Assembly (NCBI GenBank): GCA_017416245.1 | Contig: JAFQCX010000001.1 | Location: 1 to 63,953, forward strand | Direction: 5' to 3' | DNA from: Oscillospiraceae bacterium | Lineage (GTDB): Bacteria; Bacillota; Clostridia; Oscillospirales; Oscillospiraceae | Length of the DNA stretch: 63,953 nucleotides | Made by a program: the position numbers and the translations under genes | Shown: piece by piece, positions 22,776 to 31,967 of the stretch | Position numbering within the stretch: position 1 is the stretch's first letter | How the letters are laid out: each line of letters begins with the position of its first letter | Notes under the pieces: model-generated | The model's input: the letters and a program-made list of their open reading frames with translations, nothing else | What the model was told of the DNA's origin: nothing | Database searches by the model: none

Positions 22776-25418
22776 TTATTCAACTAATCCGTATTTGACT
22801 TTGATGCGGTCAAGCTTTTCCAGCATAGGTTCAGCGGCGATGAGGATGAAGATAACCGTTGCGGCGGCGTGGATCAGGTCCATTGGTAGTCCGGATACAT
22901 AGTAAGCCTTGAGCATTTCCCAGTTGATTGTTTGTGAATTGTACATCAGCGCAGCGGCGGGATTCATAATGCCGCCGTAGATGATCACTGCTGCAAACGC
23001 ACCGAAGGTAGCCAAACTGCCACGGCTGCGACGCAGGAGACCTTTGCGAAACAGCACACCTGCCAGGAAGCCGATGATACCCATGCTGAACATCTGCCAG
23101 GGCATCCAGGGGCCTTGGGAGAACAATACATTTGACACTATCATGGTCACAGCGCCCACAAGGAATCCGGCCTCACCGCCGAGTGCAACGCCGGAGATGA
23201 TGACCAACGCCAGCACCGGCTTGAACTGGGGCAGCATAAAGAAGGCAGACCGACCCGCGATACCAATAGCGCACAGCACAGCGATGGTCACCAATTCTCT
23301 TGCCTTGGGTTTGCGGCTTTCAAACACTAGGAAAAAGGGCACCATACATTCAATCAGCACCAGCATAGCGGTCACATTGTAATGCTGATTGCCCAGATAC
23401 ATTACACCGGCAAAAATGGTCAGCGGGATGCACAGCACGATCAGCACCGCGGCAACAATCGTGCGTTTGCTGAGTTTTCTCTGTTTAGCAGGAATTTGGA
23501 GCAAAGCAGAAGGAGCGCTTCTTCGACCAATGGATGCGATAAATACTCCCAAAGCAGCAACGAGCACCAGATATAGCGAAAGCTGCTGTTCTCCGGTGGT
23601 GCTGATGCCATCTTTGCCAATGAGTGCAGAAAGGTCTGTGATACTGGTGGCATAGAAGAACACCAGCATTGCAATCACCAGGGATACACCTGCCAAGAGT
23701 TTTCTCCATAGTGGCAGCGGCTTGGGTTTGAAGTTGACCGCCGTTTCCTTCGGTTCGAGCAAGACAGTTGCTTCGGGGATTTCCGGTTCTGCAGGTAGCT
23801 CACCACCGCAGCAGCCGATAATGTCAGCCACAGTCACAGCCTTGGGGATCAAGTGCCGTGCCATGCGGTTAGCCGGGGTGGTGTAGAAGCTGTTGCCGGA
23901 GAAGAACTCACGGGGTGTACCCTCTGCCACGATACTGCCATCAAAAAACAGACCGCACTTGTGGGCATATTCGGCACAGAAGGGTACATCGTGGCTGACC
24001 ATCAGAATGGTTACTCCTTGTGCAACCAACCTGCGCAGGATCAAGGCGAAGGTTACCTTGAACTCTGCGTCAAAACCCTTGGTAGGCTCGTCCAGCAGCA
24101 GAATGTCGGGTGCGGTCAGCAGTACCTTCGCCAAAGCGGTGCGCTGCTGCTCACCACCGGAAATGTCATAGGGATGCCGATCCAGGAATTCCCGCAGACC
24201 GCAAAGCTCTGTGATCCGTGCAACCTCTGCGTCCTGCTTTTCTTTGGGGATCTTCTCGCCCCGGAATACCTCGTACAGATCCTCCCGGACGGTGCGTTTT
24301 ACAAATAGGGTTTGTGGATTCTGGGGCAGGTGTCCAAGCTTGCCTTGTAAACGAACATCGCCACGATAGGCAGACCGCAAGCCGGAGATCACCTTCAGTG
24401 TGGTGGATTTTCCTGCACCGTTGCCGCCCAGGATGGCATAGAACTCGCCCTTGCGCAGCTTCAAAGAAAAGCCTTTCACTACATCCGGGCTATCCTTTTC
24501 GTAGCGGAACCACAAATCATCACATTCCAGCGTTACATCCTCTGGGTACACCGGGGGATCTTTTACGGCCAGAGGGAGAAGCGATTGTTCCTCTACGCGT
24601 TGAGAAAGGAAACTGCTGCCGTCACGGACGGTCATGGGGCAATCCAGCTTCGTTTCCACCGCTGCCCACACCCGCATAGCGGTGGGCATAGCCAGAAACA
24701 TTCCGCTGCCCTTATCCTTTAACTGCAAGCCTACATTCTCCGGCTTGTCATCGCAGATAATAGCGCCCTCATCCATGACAATAACACGAGTAGCAAAGGG
24801 AAAGGCCTCCTCCAAACGATGCTCCGTCAAAATGATGGTCGTACCTAGTTCTCGATTGATCTTGCCCAACAGAGCCAGGAAATCAGCGGCGGCAATGGGG
24901 TCAAGCTGTGCGGTCGGCTCGTCCAGCACCAGCACACCCGGCTGCATCGCCATAACCGATGCAAGGCTTAGCAGCTGCTTCTGTCCGCCGGACAGCTCCG
25001 TGACATTCTTATAAAACCAATTCTCAATGCCAAAGAATGCGGCAATTTCCGCAACCCGGCGGCGAATGGTGGGGGTATCGTAGCCTAAACTCTCCAGGCC
25101 AAAGGCAAGTTCGTGCCAAACCTTATCGGTGACTACCTGGTTTTCCGGGGATTGGAGGACGTAGCCGATTTGCTGTGCCTGCTCCCGTTGGGAAAGTTCA
25201 GACAACAGCGTACCTTGATAGCGAATCTCACCGGAGAATAGTCCATGGGGTGTCAGACAGGATTTTAAGTGCCGCAAAAGGGTGGATTTGCCACAGCCGG
25301 AGGGGCCACAGAGGATCACGAACTCGCCCTGTTGAACTGTGAATGAGATATTGCAAAGGGCCTTTTTCTCGCCCTCCGGGTATGTAAAATCTACATTTTT
25401 GAATGAATAGCTTTCCAT
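22776..25418 (-). CDS. Fused ECF transporter: two ATPases plus S component (probable cobalamin)
   Basis: An 880-aa polypeptide joining three normally separate subunits. ATPase 1 has Walker A GPSGCGKST (about 38-46), signature LSGGQKQ (about 142) and VLVLDEPTAQLDP. ATPase 2 has GGNGAGKST (about 331-339), ISGGEQQ (about 420) and ILLLDEPTKGFD. From about 571 to the end comes a polytopic S-component domain with the stretch SGVALGGEAGFLVGA followed by SQGPWMPWQMFSMGIIGFLA. This resembles the CbrT-type S components proposed or shown for vitamin B12. GGAG precedes the ATG at MESYSF, which overlaps ecfT by 28 bases. The cobalamin substrate is inferred from the operon and riboswitches. Confidence 0.9.
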   Translation of the reverse strand: MESYSFKNVDFTYPEGEKKALCNISFTVQQGEFVILCGPSGCGKSTLLRHLKSCLTPHGLFSGEIRYQGTLLSELSQREQAQQIGYVLQSPENQVVTDKVWHELAFGLESLGYDTPTIRRRVAEIAAFFGIENWFYKNVTELSGGQKQLLSLASVMAMQPGVLVLDEPTAQLDPIAAADFLALLGKINRELGTTIILTEHRLEEAFPFATRVIVMDEGAIICDDKPENVGLQLKDKGSGMFLAMPTAMRVWAAVETKLDCPMTVRDGSSFLSQRVEEQSLLPLAVKDPPVYPEDVTLECDDLWFRYEKDSPDVVKGFSLKLRKGEFYAILGGNGAGKSTTLKVISGLRSAYRGDVRLQGKLGHLPQNPQTLFVKRTVREDLYEVFRGEKIPKEKQDAEVARITELCGLREFLDRHPYDISGGEQQRTALAKVLLTAPDILLLDEPTKGFDAEFKVTFALILRRLVAQGVTILMVSHDVPFCAEYAHKCGLFFDGSIVAEGTPREFFSGNSFYTTPANRMARHLIPKAVTVADIIGCCGGELPAEPEIPEATVLLEPKETAVNFKPKPLPLWRKLLAGVSLVIAMLVFFYATSITDLSALIGKDGISTTGEQQLSLYLVLVAALGVFIASIGRRSAPSALLQIPAKQRKLSKRTIVAAVLIVLCIPLTIFAGVMYLGNQHYNVTAMLVLIECMVPFFLVFESRKPKARELVTIAVLCAIGIAGRSAFFMLPQFKPVLALVIISGVALGGEAGFLVGAVTMIVSNVLFSQGPWMPWQMFSMGIIGFLAGVLFRKGLLRRSRGSLATFGAFAAVIIYGGIMNPAAALMYNSQTINWEMLKAYYVSGLPMDLIHAAATVIFILIAAEPMLEKLDRIKVKYGLVE

Positions 25419-26281
25419 TTTCTCTCCTCTAAGTAGTTCAACACCACGGGCATCAAACACAGAATCAAATATACAAACTGAAAAGAAAGGGTTACAGAGT
25501 TCAAGCCAATATAGCGGATGCTGGGGAAATACCGGAATCCAAAGGCAGTCACGATCATACCTGCCAGCAGATAAAAGCCACAGAAACCCAAGTAGAGCAG
25601 CGCCATCTTATCCCGGTCATCAAAGCGGTAGATAGAAAAGGCGGTGCGGCCTTTCAGACCGTAACCCCGGCTTTTCATGCTGTCGGCGGTTTCAATGGCA
25701 TTTTCCAATGCCCAGGTGACCATGATGGATAGCACGGTAATGGCGATCTTCGTTCGGTGCCAAAGAGAGCCCTGCGAAATATCTCTGCCGATGCTCCGCT
25801 GAGCATCCACCACCGAATCCATCTGCGCCTTAAACTTTGGGATAAACCGCAGGGTCATACTCAAAACCAAAGACATCGCCGGGATGATGCGACCAAAGAG
25901 ATAGATAAACTTGTCGGAGGTAATGACCCGGTTAAAGTTCAGAAACCAGAGCATCACGGTAGCGATCATCACACCGGCAGACAGACCGTAAAGGATGCTC
26001 TCCAAGGTCAGCGGATTTCCTGTGGGGAAATACATCAAAATGGTGATACCCTCATGGCTGAAAGCAGGATTCATAAATGCCGTCAGCAGCATAATAGGCA
26101 GACACCATTTGAGGGTGAACAGCACCGCCTTTTTCCCTTCCGCCTGCACAGCATAAAGACAAGCGCAGATAAGAGATATCCCTTGCGCCAAAGGGTGATT
26201 CAACGCCATGGAGAAGCCAATCACCAAAGTAAAATACAGAAAGTTTACCAAGGGATGGTACTTTGAAAAACGATCAACCAT
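25391..26281 (-). CDS. ecfT: ECF transporter transmembrane protein EcfT
   Basis: A 296-aa transmembrane coupling subunit with about six hydrophobic helices and the two cytosolic coupling motifs. These are AQRSIGRDISQG (first ARG-like site) and ADSMKSRGYGLKGRT, the classic SRGYG motif, at about residues 190-206. The start MVDRFSKYHPLVNF is typical. Its ATG follows the lipoprotein stop by two bases, and it overlaps the fused ATPase gene downstream, so all are one translational unit. It transmits ATP hydrolysis to the S component. Confidence 0.93.
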   Translation of the reverse strand: MVDRFSKYHPLVNFLYFTLVIGFSMALNHPLAQGISLICACLYAVQAEGKKAVLFTLKWCLPIMLLTAFMNPAFSHEGITILMYFPTGNPLTLESILYGLSAGVMIATVMLWFLNFNRVITSDKFIYLFGRIIPAMSLVLSMTLRFIPKFKAQMDSVVDAQRSIGRDISQGSLWHRTKIAITVLSIMVTWALENAIETADSMKSRGYGLKGRTAFSIYRFDDRDKMALLYLGFCGFYLLAGMIVTAFGFRYFPSIRYIGLNSVTLSFQFVYLILCLMPVVLNYLEERKWKAIHSKM

Positions 26282-26283
26282 AC

Positions 26284-27474
26284 TCAAAACAGATTCTTTC
26301 CGCCCACATCGTTGCCCAGATCGCAGGTGTAGCGCCACTCTACTACATCGCCGTCTTGCAGCTGATAGCGGGAACAGCCGTAGTTGGGATACCAGCCGTT
26401 GACCCGGTACATCCAACCGGAGAGTGCGCCGCAATCAAATTCGTACAGATTGTGGATGCCTTCGATGTAAGCACTATTGTAGATGGGCGTCCAGGAGGAC
26501 TCCAAGTGGATGCCCTTTTCTTTGCAGACCCGCTGCAGCACATTGAACACAGATTCTCCCTCATAGAAGCTGACGGTTGTCTTTGCCAGGATCGTACCTC
26601 CGGAGGGGACCTTTTCCAGCTTGTCGGGGTCTAACTGATCCAGATTATTCAAAATAGTGGAACACTCAATGGAGAAGGTACAAGTATAGGTTTTACCCTT
26701 GTCTACATCCTGATCTTCCGGCTCCACCGGCTTGGGTTTGCCTTCCGGTATTGGATCAGTAAGGTACTGATCCTTGCCCTGCGTTTCCTTCGGCTTAGTA
26801 GGTTCGGTAGTTTCTTCCGGCTCAGTAGCTACAGTCATCGGAACCGTTTCCGTTTCAGGTTCGGTAGGTGCGGTAGTAGGAACAGTTTCCTCCTTCGGTT
26901 TGGTGGGTGCAGTGGTAGAGTCAACCGAAGCTTCCGGCACAGAAGGCTCTGTGCTATGGGTTGGCGTTTGATCCTGCGGTATGGGATCAGGATGGATAAC
27001 AAAGGTATCCACAGTGCCGTCTAAATTAAGGTTCAGAATCGTGCACTCACTGCCGGTTATAGAGACAGCTGTAAAAGCATTGTTACCTGCATAAGCAGTT
27101 GCGCTTTGAGCATCCCATTGCTCGTCCAAATAGATGGCCAGCGTTGCGGAAAAACCAAAGGCGTGTACTTGCCGCAGAGTAACTTGTATATTACCTTCGG
27201 CGGTTTTACTGATTTGTACGCCGAGATTGATCTCCCGGGCTTGCGCAATGTCGCTGCCAAAGACAGTCCACTCATATCTCAAATCGCCGGATTTGCCAAC
27301 AAAAACGGCGATGGTATTTTCGTTTTTAATTTGGGCAACAGTGCTTTTTGATATCACACCGTCTTCAGGAATTTGCACAGGATCTTTTAAGTTCACGCTG
27401 CCAAAGTTTCCCTGACAGGCAGAAAGGAAAAGCACTGTAGCTATAATCAACAAAATGCAAAGGAATCGTTTCAT
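26284..27474 (-). CDS. DUF4430 lipoprotein, probable extracellular cobalamin-binding protein
   Basis: A 396-aa lipoprotein. The signal peptide ends at the lipobox LSAC with Cys20 as the lipidated residue. A folded N-terminal domain (about 25-160) is followed by a Thr/Pro/Glu linker with repeated TxPTxPE units (about 165-255) and a DUF4430 domain (about 265-390). That domain has the FYEGESVFNVLQRVC and GALSGWMYRVNGWYPNYG blocks and ends near DGDVVEWRYTCDLG. DUF4430 corresponds to the C-terminal beta domain of animal transcobalamin and intrinsic factor. It precedes ecfT by two bases. Delivering cobalamin to the ECF complex is inference from fold and operon. Confidence 0.88.
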   Translation of the reverse strand: MKRFLCILLIIATVLFLSACQGNFGSVNLKDPVQIPEDGVISKSTVAQIKNENTIAVFVGKSGDLRYEWTVFGSDIAQAREINLGVQISKTAEGNIQVTLRQVHAFGFSATLAIYLDEQWDAQSATAYAGNNAFTAVSITGSECTILNLNLDGTVDTFVIHPDPIPQDQTPTHSTEPSVPEASVDSTTAPTKPKEETVPTTAPTEPETETVPMTVATEPEETTEPTKPKETQGKDQYLTDPIPEGKPKPVEPEDQDVDKGKTYTCTFSIECSTILNNLDQLDPDKLEKVPSGGTILAKTTVSFYEGESVFNVLQRVCKEKGIHLESSWTPIYNSAYIEGIHNLYEFDCGALSGWMYRVNGWYPNYGCSRYQLQDGDVVEWRYTCDLGNDVGGKNLF

Positions 27475-27490
27475 AGTTCTCTCCAATCAC

Positions 27491-27543
27491 AAATCCAGTA
27501 CTTTGGATTTGTATGCAGGTGGCAGGACAAGCCTGCCACCTGC
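27491..27543 (-). promoter_or_regulatory. Intercistronic double hairpin between receptor and transporter genes
   Basis: A 12-bp perfect stem GCAGGTGGCAGG (27515-27526 with 27532-27543) and a 6-bp AAATCC/GGATTT hairpin lie between the sortase-anchored gene and the lipoprotein gene. No U tract follows, so it is more likely an RNA-stability or attenuation element than a full terminator. It could set a higher level of the surface protein than of the transporter. Confidence 0.6.
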
Positions 27544-27549
27544 GGAATA

Positions 27550-30500
27550 TTATTTTACGTATTTTTTCTTGCTCAGTGTCAAAACTGCCATGCAAGCGAC
27601 AGAAATGACCATCAAGCTTGCACAAAGAGTAATCGGGGTATTGTCACCAGTCTTAGGATTGCTGGGGGTTACCGTAACTGCAGTATCCGTATACACAAGT
27701 GCATAGGTAGAGAAGCAATCGGTCTGGAAGGACAGCTTGCCGGTTGTTGCATCATAAGCCGTATCCAAAACATCTGTCTTGCCATCGTGTATGCGAATCA
27801 CCTTGTAGGTACGGTTCACTTTGGAATCTGTATTGCGGAGATTTTCGGGCACAACCACGGTGACGGTAACCTCGCCGTTGGTTTCGGTGATCTTCACAGG
27901 CTCAGCGTTACCCAGTTTCTTGGACAGGGTAATATCCAGATACAGGCCTACGGTATTCTTATCAAGGGATTTTTCAATCAGCGCCTTGTCTGCAGCAGAA
28001 ACATTTAGACCGATATCATCCACAGACAATTCGATACTGATGTTCACGCCGGCTGCTACCTGCTTTTCTTCTTCCTGAGTCAGCAGCTTATCGACAAGCT
28101 CTGTTGCAGGAATATCCAGCGCGCCGGTATAGGCATTTTCCTTTGTATCGGTGGTATTTTCCACCTTGCCTGCCCCGGTATTATTGCTGCGGAGAATTAC
28201 GTCGCTCATATTGTACAAGGTGGTTTTTCCTTCCTTAAAGCGGAAATAGGAAACCAAGGCATACTGGCCCTGTTCGGTGGCCATACCATTAACACCACTA
28301 TTGGGAACATGGGCAAAGCCGCCGTCTTCTACAGCAAATAAGCACATTGCATCTAAGACAGAAACGCCGTTCTTAACAAACCGGGGATCTGTCTCAGGGT
28401 CAATGCCCAATGCAGTCAGCGCCACCACCACCTGCGCGCAGGATTCTGTACAGACACCGTCTACAGCGCCGAAACCGCCGTTTGCCATCTGCTTGTTGCT
28501 CAGGCAGGTCAGCGCCTTATCCACAGCTGTCTTTACTGCATCGTTTGTTTTGTAGTAAGGAGCCAGCGCCTGAATAGCCATACCGGTCATATCCGGGTCC
28601 GCTGCCCGATTGGCAAGGTCCCAACCGCCGTCAGCAAGTTGCTTTTCCAGAATATAGGCTATCAGCTTTTCCCGGGTTGCCTGTTCGGTAGCGTTGGGGT
28701 TAATGGGAATTTCATAGTTGTGGGAATCAAAGGCGATCAACGCCCAGATAGGACCGTTGACACCCTGCTTGGGAATGTAAGTCATATCTGTCAGACCCAT
28801 CAGCAGGTTATGGCCATCTACATTGGTCACATCGTAACCGGCGGCGGTCAGAGCAAGAATAATACGGGAATTTTCCGTGCTTTTAGATCTGTGAAGCTGC
28901 TCCTTGTCGTTAATTTCTGCTTTCACAAAATCTACAACATTTTTGTAATAACCCTCGGGGCATGCTTGACCAGCACGGATCAGATCAATGACCATCCATT
29001 CGCCACCGGTAGAGCCCACGCCGGGTGTGCCAAGACCTGCAATATACTTACCAGTTGCCTCATAAATTGCCTTATGGTCTGCCTTAGCCGCATGCTTGTA
29101 AAGCTCTGTTAACGCGCTTTCTGCTGCGGTCAAAACTGTGACATTGTCAACCAGCGCCTTCTGGGTATCGGTCAAAGCATCAAAAGCAGCGCGGGCATCA
29201 TCAATCTTCTTTCCGGAGAAAACTGTTACCGTCCCAATGGTTGCAATTTGTTCTTCAACGGCGTCTGCTGCAGCCTGGTCTGCTGCAGCCTGGGCAGCGG
29301 CATCCTTTAACTGCTGCAATTTTTCTTCTGCAGTGGTCAGCGCGGCATAGTTGGAAACCATTGCCTTGCGAGTATCGTTCAGGGCATCGTAGGCTTCTCT
29401 TGCTGCAGTAATTGCAGCTTCCTTGGTCAAGTCCACGGAGCCAATGGAGGTGATCAAAGCTTCTACCTCATCGGCAGCCTCCCGGTCTCCCAACAAGGTG
29501 TTGTAGGTTTCCTGGGCTTCTTCCAGCAGTTCTGTCACCTCAAAATAGGCAAGAACCTCTTTTTCCATATCGGACAAGGCTTCGTAAAGTGCAGTCGCGT
29601 TACGGATCGCTTCGCCGCTTTCCAGGGTGATTTCCCCGTTGTCATAAATTGCAAAAATGGCATCCATTGCGTCTAAAGCATTGTCCGTCAGCAGAACAGG
29701 CTTGATATCCCAGCTGCCGGCAGTGTTATAAGCACTCTCTGATCCCAATTGGAGATAGAATTCAATGTATTCCTTACCGGTATCCTCGTCAGTATAACCA
29801 AAGCCGTAACCGGTCCAGCAATCGTTGCCAAGATCCCAATCCACATAGCCATCACCGGGATCATCGGCAAAGTAATTCTCACCGTTTACATTCCAGCCAA
29901 TCACATTGCTGTCTGTGTAGAAATCCACATAGAGGATGTACTGGTCATAGTCTGCCACAGAAAAGCCGAATTTGACGTTATCACCCGCCTCGCAGGTGTC
30001 GTCCAGGTATGCAAAATCGGCCTCGTTCAGATTGTAGGCGATCATACCGCCATCATAAATAGGAGCGGTCAGATCACTCAAATCCAAGTTAAACTCCAGG
30101 TCAGGCACATTTACAGTAGCAAACGCCGGCGAAGAAACAACGCAGGGTTCACCGGTGCTGAAATAGGAATCGCACCAGTCATGCATACCTTCTGTTCCCT
30201 GTCCGCCGTTCACCCAAAGGTAATAGGTGCCGGGATCGGTGAAGGTAATGGACGCGCAGCCATCCGCATCGGTCGTAACACTGCCTATTTCATCGTAAAG
30301 GGTCGTGCCGTAGTAAACGGTGCAATCGGGAATATCAAGAAATGCAGTGGAATAGTCGCCACCCATACTTGCGCCGCCCTTAATCAGCTTGATATTAGTG
30401 GCATCTCCTGCCTGGGCAGTATAGGTATGGGTGATTTCGTCGTTTTCATCAGCAAAATACTGGAACCCAAAGGCTTCATCTCCATAAAAGCCCCAACAGC

Positions 30501-31011
30501 TATATCCGGCAAGGTCAATAAAATCACCGGGCTGTAAAACGATGTGATCTGATGTAGCGCCCCAACTCTCACTCTCCAGAGGATACGCACCATTTAAGTA
30601 ATAGTTCAGGTTTTCGTCCTGTCCAAACAGACCGCCTGCAAAGTAGGTGCTTCCAGGCGTGCCTGAGAAATTAACCTCGCTCCAGCTGCCACCATAGAGA
30701 TTTTCGTGTGCATAAATGATCAGATGCAGCGCAGTGATTTCATAACTTCCGTCGCCATCTGCATCATACAGATAGTCTGCCAAACCATACGCATCCAGAT
30801 CGATCGTTGCCAGTTCGTCAAAAGAAACCGGGACATACGCCATAGGCTTGCCGGTTTGATCATTTTTATATATGCCATTAAAGCTTACGGACATATATAC
30901 TGTACCTTCCTGCAACACTTCCACATTCGTTGCCAGGGCAACTGCAGGCAGCAGACCCAGCACCATCACAACTGCCAGGATCATACTCAAAAGTTTCTTG
31001 GTAATTCGCAT
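27550..31011 (-). CDS. Sortase-anchored transcobalamin-like surface protein, 1153 aa
   Basis: The signal peptide covers about 1-27. N-terminal beta domains (about 30-300) include an Ig-like part with DPGTYYLWVNGG and a DUF4430-like stretch. A further beta domain (about 305-440) and three helical repeats (about 450-640, unit YDALTDTQKALV-like) form a stalk. Residues about 650-930 are a prenyltransferase/squalene-oxidase-type alpha/alpha barrel with paired ADGGWDL and NGGFGAV motifs, the fold of the large domain of intrinsic factor. A C-terminal beta domain precedes NPKTG (1118-1122), a hydrophobic helix and KKKYVK, a cell-wall sorting signal. It is the largest product behind two cobalamin riboswitches. 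B12 binding is inference. Confidence 0.87.
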   Translation of the reverse strand: MRITKKLLSMILAVVMVLGLLPAVALATNVEVLQEGTVYMSVSFNGIYKNDQTGKPMAYVPVSFDELATIDLDAYGLADYLYDADGDGSYEITALHLIIYAHENLYGGSWSEVNFSGTPGSTYFAGGLFGQDENLNYYLNGAYPLESESWGATSDHIVLQPGDFIDLAGYSCWGFYGDEAFGFQYFADENDEITHTYTAQAGDATNIKLIKGGASMGGDYSTAFLDIPDCTVYYGTTLYDEIGSVTTDADGCASITFTDPGTYYLWVNGGQGTEGMHDWCDSYFSTGEPCVVSSPAFATVNVPDLEFNLDLSDLTAPIYDGGMIAYNLNEADFAYLDDTCEAGDNVKFGFSVADYDQYILYVDFYTDSNVIGWNVNGENYFADDPGDGYVDWDLGNDCWTGYGFGYTDEDTGKEYIEFYLQLGSESAYNTAGSWDIKPVLLTDNALDAMDAIFAIYDNGEITLESGEAIRNATALYEALSDMEKEVLAYFEVTELLEEAQETYNTLLGDREAADEVEALITSIGSVDLTKEAAITAAREAYDALNDTRKAMVSNYAALTTAEEKLQQLKDAAAQAAADQAAADAVEEQIATIGTVTVFSGKKIDDARAAFDALTDTQKALVDNVTVLTAAESALTELYKHAAKADHKAIYEATGKYIAGLGTPGVGSTGGEWMVIDLIRAGQACPEGYYKNVVDFVKAEINDKEQLHRSKSTENSRIILALTAAGYDVTNVDGHNLLMGLTDMTYIPKQGVNGPIWALIAFDSHNYEIPINPNATEQATREKLIAYILEKQLADGGWDLANRAADPDMTGMAIQALAPYYKTNDAVKTAVDKALTCLSNKQMANGGFGAVDGVCTESCAQVVVALTALGIDPETDPRFVKNGVSVLDAMCLFAVEDGGFAHVPNSGVNGMATEQGQYALVSYFRFKEGKTTLYNMSDVILRSNNTGAGKVENTTDTKENAYTGALDIPATELVDKLLTQEEEKQVAAGVNISIELSVDDIGLNVSAADKALIEKSLDKNTVGLYLDITLSKKLGNAEPVKITETNGEVTVTVVVPENLRNTDSKVNRTYKVIRIHDGKTDVLDTAYDATTGKLSFQTDCFSTYALVYTDTAVTVTPSNPKTGDNTPITLCASLMVISVACMAVLTLSKKKYVK

Positions 31012-31027
31012 TTCAGTTCGTCCTTTC

Positions 31028-31228
31028 TTACTGCGATTCGCTTACTTTCTTTTCCTTGGGCTGTTTCAGCCCGGCAGACTCCAACGCACGGGGCCACGGC
31101 CCAAGGTAAGCCTTGATTTGGGCGCAAGCAGCATTGTCGAAGTCTTTTTTTGTAGGGAGCCTTCCAAGCTCCGCAAACTTTTGTCGCAGAAGGTCCTCCG
31201 CCCAGGTCTTCTTTTCTTCCGGTGTCAC
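31028..31228 (-). CDS. Homing-endonuclease-associated-repeat miniprotein, 66 aa
   Basis: This small basic protein lies between the second riboswitch terminator and the surface-protein gene. It contains one HNH_repeat-type unit (FAELGRLPTKKDFDN through YLGPWPRALESAGLK, about residues 16-52), the helical repeat found beside homing endonucleases and in small proteins. No nuclease motif is present. I prefer the GTG start (TPEEKKTWAED next) because GGGAGG lies 7 bases upstream; an ATG two codons earlier lies too close to it. Seventeen bases separate it from the next start codon. A regulatory or nucleic-acid-binding role is a guess. Confidence 0.7.
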   Translation of the reverse strand: MTPEEKKTWAEDLLRQKFAELGRLPTKKDFDNAACAQIKAYLGPWPRALESAGLKQPKEKKVSESQ

Positions 31229-31274
31229 TTGCATCCCTCCCTTACTGTTTTGTGGTTCTCCCGCAAACAAAAAA

Positions 31275-31317
31275 GTGCAACCCATTTATCCTCAAGTACG
31301 GATAAATTAGGTTACAC
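31275..31317 (-). terminator. Riboswitch-controlled terminator 2
   Basis: Read leftward, a long stem GTGTAACCTAATTTATCC/GGATAAATGGGTTGCAC is followed by TTTTTT. It lies between the second aptamer and the first coding sequence, the place for a cobalamin-controlled terminator. Confidence 0.85.
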
Positions 31318-31335
31318 TCTCCTGTCAAAGCGTGA

Positions 31336-31460
31336 TAAACCCAATCGACATGGCAGGCTCTCTGACTTATGGCAAACGCCAAACACAGCAATGGACGGTT
31401 GTTCCGGTTTCTCACCGGATCACCTTACCGCATCGATAAGCAATATTCAGTTGGTTTGCG
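31336..31460 (-). promoter_or_regulatory. Cobalamin riboswitch aptamer 2 (promoter-distal, compact)
   Basis: Read leftward, the core CCGGTGAGAAACCGG, then CCGTCCATTGCTGTG and AGTCAGAGAGCCTGCC match the B12-box layout (family consensus GCCACTG and AGTCAGGAtaCCTGCC). AACCAA near 31451-31457 and TTGGGTT near 31338-31345 pair as the closing stem. At about 125 nt it is shorter than the classic type, so it may be a variant class. A separate 9-bp hairpin GTGACCGTC/GACGGTCAC (31465-31520) lies just upstream. Confidence 0.78.
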
Positions 31461-31523
31461 GGCTGTGACCGTCAGGGCAATCAGCAGGTCAAGGGGGATG
31501 AGACCCACACAGACGGTCACAGC

Positions 31524-31562
31524 AAAAAAGCTGCAGCAACCCTATACTGGGCCGCTGCAGCC
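31524..31562 (-). terminator. Riboswitch-controlled terminator 1
   Basis: GCTGCAGC pairs with a second GCTGCAGC across a GGCC/GGGTT-closed loop and is followed leftward by TTTTTT. It lies after the first aptamer and before the second. Confidence 0.8.
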
Positions 31563-31621
31563 GTTTTTTTCCGCAACAAAAAACCACAGGCTCCGTACTT
31601 GCAGACCCTAGTGTTTTTACC

Positions 31622-31816
31622 TCATTTGAGCAGTTCTCCTGGCTTACGCATCATAAGCTCCCACACAGCCTTCTCAGGACTGACCCAATGACCGACTTTC
31701 GTCTTGTGTGGGTGCCTCCACGCATACAGTGGCGGTACCGTCCGGGATTCTCACCCGGTTTTCTATTCTCCTACGGGGCTGTTACCGCGTCCGCAGGCAC
31801 TCAAACGGAATATTTA
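31622..31816 (-). promoter_or_regulatory. Cobalamin riboswitch aptamer 1 (promoter-proximal)
   Basis: Read leftward, the aptamer shows GAGTGCCTGC near its 5' end, CCGGGTGAGAATCCCGG, then ACGGTACCGCCACTGTATGC (the B12 box) and AAGCCAGGAGAACTGC, in the order and spacing of the AdoCbl-type cobalamin riboswitch. It starts within about 10 bases of the expected transcription start. Confidence 0.9.
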
Positions 31817-31825
31817 CTTGTAAAC

Positions 31826-31854
31826 AGTATACACGATTGGTCCCCAAAAGTCAA
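31826..31854 (-). promoter_or_regulatory. Sigma-A promoter for the cobalamin operon
   Basis: Read leftward, TTGACT, a 17-base spacer and TATACT place the start of transcription just before riboswitch 1. The divergent DUF2284 promoter lies about 85 bases away. Confidence 0.85.
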
Positions 31855-31938
31855 TCGAAAAAGAAGAAACCTTAATATTTAAGATAAATTGTAACATAAA
31901 CTTAAAAAAGCACAGGATTATAGACAATTCTCTGTTTC

Positions 31939-31967
31939 TTGACAAGGTGTGTACCAAACAGTATAGT
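31939..31967 (+). promoter_or_regulatory. Promoter for the DUF2284 gene
   Basis: TTGACA, 17 bases and TATAGT lie 18 bases before the ATG, giving a very short leader that contains only GAGGTG; there is no riboswitch on this side. Confidence 0.8.

Follow-up and report, generated by a model that had tools for sequence, protein, structure and literature searches.

The window analysed here is a 63,953-nucleotide stretch (contig JAFQCX010000001.1 of assembly GCA_017416245.1) from an Oscillospiraceae bacterium, a Gram-positive and probably an inhabitant of the animal gut. It carries an operon led by a cobalamin riboswitch that encodes a surface protein, a DUF4430 lipoprotein, the transporter protein EcfT and a fusion protein, EcfA-EcfA'-S. 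All of these features lie on the minus strand, close to the places assigned to them in a preliminary description of this DNA. The leader is followed by a small open reading frame (ORF), the surface protein (27550..31011), the lipoprotein (26284..27474), EcfT (25391..26281) and EcfA-EcfA'-S (22776..25418). The start of EcfT was revised from the sequence to the ATG at 26281, and EcfA-EcfA'-S probably starts at the ATG at 25418, where there is a good ribosome site. Only 2 bases separate the lipoprotein stop from the EcfT start, and the genes for EcfT and EcfA-EcfA'-S overlap; this spacing suggests that the operon is read as a single transcript. The riboswitch that had been proposed is present as a large aptamer of the RF00174 type (31612..31819), scoring 86.8 bits (E 4.9e-20) against a curated cut-off of 31.5.

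The surface protein has 1153 residues, comprising a signal peptide and helical repeats (both recognized by eye), a DUF4430-like N-terminal domain, an alpha/alpha barrel and a sortase-type signal. Its C-terminus reads SNPKTGDN, in which NPKTG was recognized by pattern, followed by a hydrophobic stretch and KKKYVK. The Pfam anchor model PF00746 did not match the protein. A sortase is encoded in the same genome (PF04203, E 1.1e-13), and together with the sorting motif, the hydrophobic stretch and the positive tail it bears out the earlier suggestion that the protein is anchored to the cell wall. Neither Pfam nor a DUF4430 profile built here matched the N-terminal domain (residues 37-211; 30379..30903). 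Local profile-profile alignment with DUF4430 gave probabilities of 74% and 83% over 31-33 columns in the last third of the domain, and runs with the -glob option gave 9.6% and 59%, compared to 0.1-0.2% for three control profiles. Because the local probabilities of 74-83% stand so far above the controls (0.1-0.2%), we read this domain as probably a divergent DUF4430, on evidence of moderate strength.

The lipoprotein is an exported protein with a lipobox, identified by pattern, and a C-terminal DUF4430 domain (PF14478, of the transcobalamin-like clade of the SLBB superfamily; E 4.2e-17). With the Pfam DUF4430 model, human transcobalamin was also recognized in its C-terminal part at 2.7e-5, over the cut-off, and intrinsic factor likewise at 0.0029, below it. 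Profile-profile comparison of bacterial DUF4430 with the transcobalamin beta domain gave a score of 61.1, against 9.9 +/- 2.1 for 60 scrambled profiles (59 shuffled and one reversed), and a probability of 96%. On these comparisons, DUF4430 is a homologue of the transcobalamin beta domain. The barrel (residues 641-940 approximately; 28192..29091) was recognized and placed through relatives that match squalene-cyclase/prenyltransferase toroid families, as the barrel of the window protein itself fell below every Pfam cut-off, with SQHop_cyclase_N as the best match (E 0.0096). Compared with the transcobalamin alpha domain, the barrel profile scored 36.6, while 60 scrambled profiles scored 13.9 +/- 2.6, with a maximum of 21.0.

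The remaining two genes encode an energy-coupling factor (ECF) importer. EcfT matched the CbiQ family of transmembrane proteins (PF02361, E 3.8e-7). EcfA-EcfA'-S contains two ATPases, seen as two ABC_tran stretches (3.4e-57) with TIGR04520 and ECF_ATPase_1 over their cut-offs, followed by a substrate-binding membrane domain (S domain) with matches to ECF_trnsprt (9.9e-9) and ECF-ribofla_trS at about residues 720-873. NCBIfam families on the S domain of the window protein were those for folate and riboflavin, weakly and only under cut-off. A profile built from 12 S domains, including that of the window, had as its best match among solved structures 6fnp_A (1.7e-18), followed by the riboflavin uptake protein 3p5n (2.2e-6) and 4hzu (9.2e-5). 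Entry 6FNP is ECF-CbrT (PMC5997447), and its 182-residue chain A, named ‘Membrane protein’, would be the CbrT subunit. The importer genes that had been proposed are present, and of all solved structures it is the ECF-CbrT entry that their S domain resembles most.

We surveyed relatives of the barrel protein in public genomes by a profile scan, and kept the best 80 of at least 582 confirmed barrel matches (595 pattern matches). Close relatives are over-represented, since only the best 80 loci were kept; L083 and L024 are one and the same stretch, and 520/535 positions are identical between the barrel proteins encoded in L104 and L106. The loci are labelled as coming from gut Oscillospiraceae and Lachnospiraceae, from Ruminococcus bromii, Paenibacillus, Clostridium, Lutispora, Terrisporobacter and one member of the Coriobacteriales. 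For 63 of them, 5.5 kb or more of sequence lay downstream of the barrel gene (17/80 were dropped), and 56 of these 63 contained separate genes for DUF4430, EcfT, EcfA and S. Recurrence on this scale makes a chance assembly of the gene set implausible. Clear DUF4430 and barrel domains in one polypeptide were seen in 42/80 loci and, given the DUF4430-like N-terminal domain of the window protein (for which the evidence is moderate), the earlier view that the two domains are split over two surface proteins is not supported in that form.

For the control elements we used a riboswitch covariance model with no training sequence from the 80 loci, and considered the 64 loci with at least 600 bases upstream (16/80 were dropped). 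A cobalamin riboswitch lay directly upstream in 51/64 loci at E<=0.01 and in 55/64 at E<=1. Two loci (L044 and L045) were counted as having none, though the model detects one further upstream, and so was L071, where other searches find one. Ninety-five sources went into the model search. It did not extend to L035 and L036, in neither of which Rfam found a cobalamin riboswitch. Within the 80 loci, 58 of the 71 hits of the model lay in the upstream zone. As a background, 68 RF00174 matches were found in about 72 Mb from 36 related genomes, including that of the window; this count is a lower bound, as not every candidate was scored, and it uses RF00174 while the count in the loci uses a different model. 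All five features occurred together in 38 of the 51 loci that were good at both ends (42/51 at E<=1). A separate survey of 60 genomes, again including that of the window, found barrel matches at E<=0.001 in 15 of them. Nine of the 16 stretches around these matches contained a cobalamin-type riboswitch (RF00174 in L022, L025, L027, L028, L029, L032, L033 and L037; AdoCbl-II in L034), and ECF genes lay beside the barrel in stretches from seven genomes (L022/L023, L024, L025, L026, L027, L031 and L034), but not in the remaining stretches, which are more distant or short.

We then considered the need for B12 in eight carrier genomes, three of R. bromii and five others. CbiD is a marker of anaerobic B12 synthesis, and FecCD is the permease family that includes BtuC. 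All eight genomes encode a B12-binding domain over cut-off, and each has one such ORF of 812-837 residues, the size of MetH. CbiD was found in none of the eight, and FecCD over cut-off in none, with matches under cut-off in two. Since these genomes hold B12-binding proteins without CbiD or over-cut-off FecCD, and each contains the unit described here, the unit is the leading candidate for their B12 importer. The three R. bromii genomes have a single RF00174 match each at E<=0.001, located at the barrel/DUF4430/ECF operon, and in two of the three it was below the curated cut-off. R. bromii has been reported to be unable to make B12 (PMC6231298).

Taken together, these results make it highly likely that the operon serves corrinoid scavenging, with a surface binder formed by the barrel and DUF4430, a DUF4430 lipoprotein and import by a CbrT-type ECF transporter, and the unit, which is real and widely conserved, very probably obtains B12. 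Direct support comes from the gene content, the control elements, their conservation, the homology of DUF4430, the likeness of the S domain, and the presence in eight carriers of B12-binding proteins without CbiD or FecCD over cut-off. From these we infer the response of the riboswitch, corrinoid binding by the surface proteins, the sandwich geometry and the direction and order of hand-over. When corrinoid is scarce, the aptamers in the leader would be empty, and transcription would read on into the operon. The wall protein would then clamp a corrinoid between its barrel and its DUF4430-like domain, in the way that transcobalamin holds its ligand between its two domains. The membrane-tethered DUF4430 lipoprotein would share in corrinoid binding or hand-over, and import of the corrinoid would fall to the CbrT-type S domain, with energy supplied through the dedicated EcfT and the fused EcfA-EcfA'. 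Such a relay would run from the wall to the lipoprotein and on to the transporter.

Several observations weigh against this interpretation. The scrambled null used for the barrel is lenient, because column shuffling also destroys helix periodicity, and the score obtained with the alpha domain may reflect a likeness to toroids in general. The probability given by hhalign for this pair ranged from 39 to 65% by run, in a register that is probably one repeat off. An alternative register, which would pair the segments D-x-D-M-T and M-A-T-E-Q with VDTAAMA and ALMISQ of transcobalamin, scored lower (23.4, with 2.2% probability). Searched against the PDB at E<=10, the barrel profile found squalene/terpene cyclases and alpha-2-macroglobulin/complement-type chains and no transcobalamin chain, nor was a transcobalamin chain in the PDB found by HMMER with the DUF4430 profile. 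PF01122, the animal cobalamin-binding family, had no match in the window protein at E<=0.01, and was not among the 25 families listed of the 43 matched by 49 barrel relatives. In the survey, none of the DUF4430, EcfT, EcfA and S genes was found nearby at the thresholds used in 7/63 loci (L052, L053, L054, L057, L072, L082 and L111), no riboswitch was detected upstream in 9/64, and distant barrel genes (L028, L029, L030, L032, L033, L035, L036 and L037) had no ECF genes within the stretch examined. FecCD proteins do occur in the carriers from Paenibacillus (L085) and Lutispora (L092), the latter of which also has CbiD, so the unit is not confined to bacteria that lack other routes to B12. Finally, the window's own genome yielded no B12-binding protein and no CbiD, and FecCD under cut-off only; these absences say little, because that genome is 66% complete. 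Of the two proposed transcobalamin-type domains, DUF4430 is the homologue of the beta domain, and the link of the barrel to the alpha domain is the weaker one. A role for the barrel as a terpene cyclase enzyme, prompted by the cyclase matches in the PDB, was set aside because of the cobalamin riboswitch and the ECF context.

It is possible, if rather unlikely, that the target is not free cobalamin but B12 precursors, analogues or carrier-bound B12, such as cobinamide, other cobamides, or B12 held by intrinsic factor or haptocorrin. ECF-CbrT also moves cobinamide (PMC5997447), BtuG of Bacteroides is able to remove B12 from intrinsic factor in vitro (PMC6977713), and a leader with two types of aptamer could be a sign of more than one form of corrinoid. 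Precursors, however, sit less well with the MetH-sized B12-binding ORFs of all eight carrier genomes, which need complete cobamides, and with the absence of CbiD from them (salvage genes were outside this search). It is less likely still that the transporter imports corrinoid while the surface barrel protein is merely co-regulated with it and has a different function, for instance in adhesion or in the binding of glycans. The barrel sequence is indeed closest to squalene/terpene cyclases and to TED/complement-type domains, and extracellular modules (FIVAR, Ig-like, fibronectin and others) are present in some of the barrel proteins at the surface. Against such a role, the barrel and DUF4430 share a polypeptide in 42/80 loci, a separate DUF4430 gene and ECF genes lie nearby in 56/63, and the barrel profile outscores every one of the 60 scrambled profiles when aligned with the transcobalamin alpha domain. 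A very improbable reading, which we rejected, is that the cobalamin riboswitch controls an ECF importer of cobalt or nickel. It would suit the match of EcfT to the CbiQ family, named for cobalt transport, and the frequent regulation of cobalt importers by cobalamin. The S domain, however, falls with the ECF-CbrT entry, and CbiD is absent in eight of eight genomes, which would have no use for cobalt in de novo synthesis by that route.

Corrinoid scavenging by a surface clamp and a dedicated importer has counterparts in known systems. Animal transcobalamin, intrinsic factor and haptocorrin share with the bacterial proteins an alpha/alpha barrel and a beta domain of the DUF4430 family. The animal carriers are secreted and taken up via receptors, whereas the bacterial proteins have wall or membrane anchors, a variable order and number of domains and no barrel match to PF01122. 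ECF-CbrT of Lactobacillus delbrueckii likewise consists of an EcfT, two ATPases and the S domain that is closest to ours among solved structures (PMC5997447). In that organism one ECF module serves several S-components (PMC5997447), while in the window the predicted EcfT and ATPase-ATPase-S fusion share an operon with two surface proteins. In Bacteroides, BtuG and BtuH are also surface capture proteins that feed a B12 importer (PMC8941943, PMC6977713), but BtuG is a beta-propeller working with BtuB (PMC6977713). A Gram-positive lipoprotein from Lacticaseibacillus is annotated as ‘Additional lipoprotein component of putative cobalamin ECF transporter’ (PMC9963975), and no barrel protein is mentioned alongside it in the available text of that report (PMC9963975).

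The closest precedent is an earlier prediction. Burroughs et al. (2007) named the SLBB superfamily and noted bacterial fusions of SLBB domains to alpha/alpha toroids, with Gram-positive anchors, second SLBB proteins in the operon and CbiO/CbiQ neighbours, in hosts that are usually without key B12 synthesis enzymes (PMC1796856). They proposed that SLBB surface complexes scavenge B12, and that B12 carriers were transferred from Gram-positive bacteria to animals (PMC1796856). Their system shares with the one described here its toroid and SLBB domains, surface signals, second SLBB protein and CbiO/CbiQ-like genes, and it too is a prediction. The idea put forward in the preliminary description, which knew of no described Gram-positive relay of this form, is a rediscovery, because the arrangement was predicted in 2007 (PMC1796856). 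The main text of that paper does not contain the terms riboswitch, dockerin, S-layer, SLH, ECF or Ruminococcus, and has no tandem leader (PMC1796856). What is new beyond the 2007 prediction are the riboswitch statistics, the CbrT-type S domain, the exchangeable anchors (sortase, dockerin and S-layer homology, SLH) and the tandem leader. We did not find an experimental test of the predicted systems in the open-licence literature, an absence that is not proof. The unit is relevant to the idea, put forward in 2007, that the B12 carriers of animals came from Gram-positive bacteria (PMC1796856).

Surface display appears to matter to the system, because interchangeable anchors are attached to a conserved core. 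The barrel proteins of R. bromii (L064, L066 and L071) end in a dockerin (E 2.3e-9, 7.9e-11 and 4.6e-13), those of L043 and L104 carry SLH domains, and in L025 membrane segments were seen by eye between the barrel and DUF4430. For a tally we took 98 barrel ORFs, of which 82 had tails of at least 40 residues, and scanned 68 of these. At E<=0.01, the C-terminal tails matched dockerin in 22/68, SLH in 16/68 and the Pfam Gram-positive anchor in 3/68, and the sortase pattern fitted 8/98 barrel ORFs. The dockerin matches suggest that barrel proteins with this ending attach to cohesin scaffolds. Dockerin-bearing amylases are described in a paper on the R. bromii amylosome (PMC5814915), the main text of which mentions neither B12 nor DUF4430. 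We tentatively extend these results, at somewhat less than an even chance, to a general ‘bacterial intrinsic factor’ of Gram-positive bacteria, in which a clamp of barrel and DUF4430 would be mounted on the species' own scaffold (the sortase-linked wall, the S-layer or, in R. bromii and its relatives, cohesin scaffoldins bound by a dockerin), and corrinoid would pass via a tethered DUF4430 to a dedicated CbrT-type ECF transporter, with two aptamer types in series in some of the leaders. If true, cellulosome and amylosome scaffolds would, through vitamin capture on dockerins, serve for more than the breakdown of polysaccharides, and the ancestor of the animal B12 carriers would have a living relative in the bacterial clamp.

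The leader of the operon is more elaborate than a single riboswitch. A promoter-like site, TTGACT-17-TATACT (31826..31854), with 10/12 matches in a consensus scan, lies directly upstream of the first aptamer, and a further site, TTGTCA-17-TATAAT, with 11/12 matches is found at 31917-31945. Such a site is weak by itself, since 15 occur in the region compared to 10.3 +/- 2.9 in shuffles. The first aptamer is followed by a hairpin resembling an intrinsic terminator (31529..31562), with a 14-pair stem and then a run of T; terminator-like sites number 13 in the region, against 10.2 +/- 3.0 in shuffles. A second, short, AdoCbl-like (adenosylcobalamin-like) aptamer stands in tandem at 31304..31452. 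It scored 29.7 bits with RF01482 (E 0.0018 in 631 bases), below the curated cut-off of 50, and was also detected at 31349-31433 (E 2e-4) by the covariance model R1, built from eleven large aptamers. With positions 31286-31480 of the window as the query, the second aptamer was found in the same place in L027, L038 and L039 (E 2.5e-43, 3.7e-37 and 3.4e-34) and, more distantly, in the leaders of R. bromii-type operons (14 loci, E 6e-9 to 5e-5). In an alignment of 14 short aptamers, 5/12 predicted pairs showed a two-sided, pairing-preserving change in at least one sequence. We take the second aptamer to be real because it is conserved in relatives and, judged from these alignments, a small group of loci has two cobalamin aptamers of different size in series. 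Behind the second aptamer, a terminator-like hairpin of GTGTAACC and GGGTTGCAC followed by T6 (31269..31317) was read by eye only, and is absent from the sites reported by the terminator scan. Each of the two tandem aptamers (31304-31819) thus has a terminator-like hairpin of its own.

Between the leader and the surface protein gene lies the small ORF (31028..31228), which matches the homing-endonuclease-associated repeat PF18780. It encodes 66 residues from the GTG at 31228, a start chosen from the site GGGAGGGA, or 85 residues from the ATG at 31285, and the Pfam match was obtained with the 85-residue form (E 1.7e-10). Inspection by eye showed a similar ORF in the leaders of L027, L038 and L039.

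A second RF00174 riboswitch is found elsewhere in the window's genome (L003, G000:C41, 6065-6773), before a DUF4430-like protein with one membrane segment. The DUF4430 score of this protein (22.6 bits) is under cut-off, EcfT and S genes were not found on its 9-kb contig, and a similar pair occurs in G065 C23. Some of the surveyed loci depart from the layout of the window. In L041, L046 and L050, the surface protein and DUF4430 genes are divergent, and each side has its own cobalamin-type aptamer. The second aptamer of each pair is weak (E 5e-4 to 0.01), and in L041 and L046 the ECF genes follow the divergent DUF4430 gene. L051 (1371-3575) contains three cobalamin aptamers 1031 bases apart, with two identical DUF4430 ORFs of 138 residues between them, a repeated unit that is either real in the organism or a product of assembly. 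In L085, L090, L092, L094, L095 and similar loci of Paenibacillus, Lutispora and Clostridium, the surface proteins are very large, and a single chain holds two or three barrels together with at least one DUF4430 domain.

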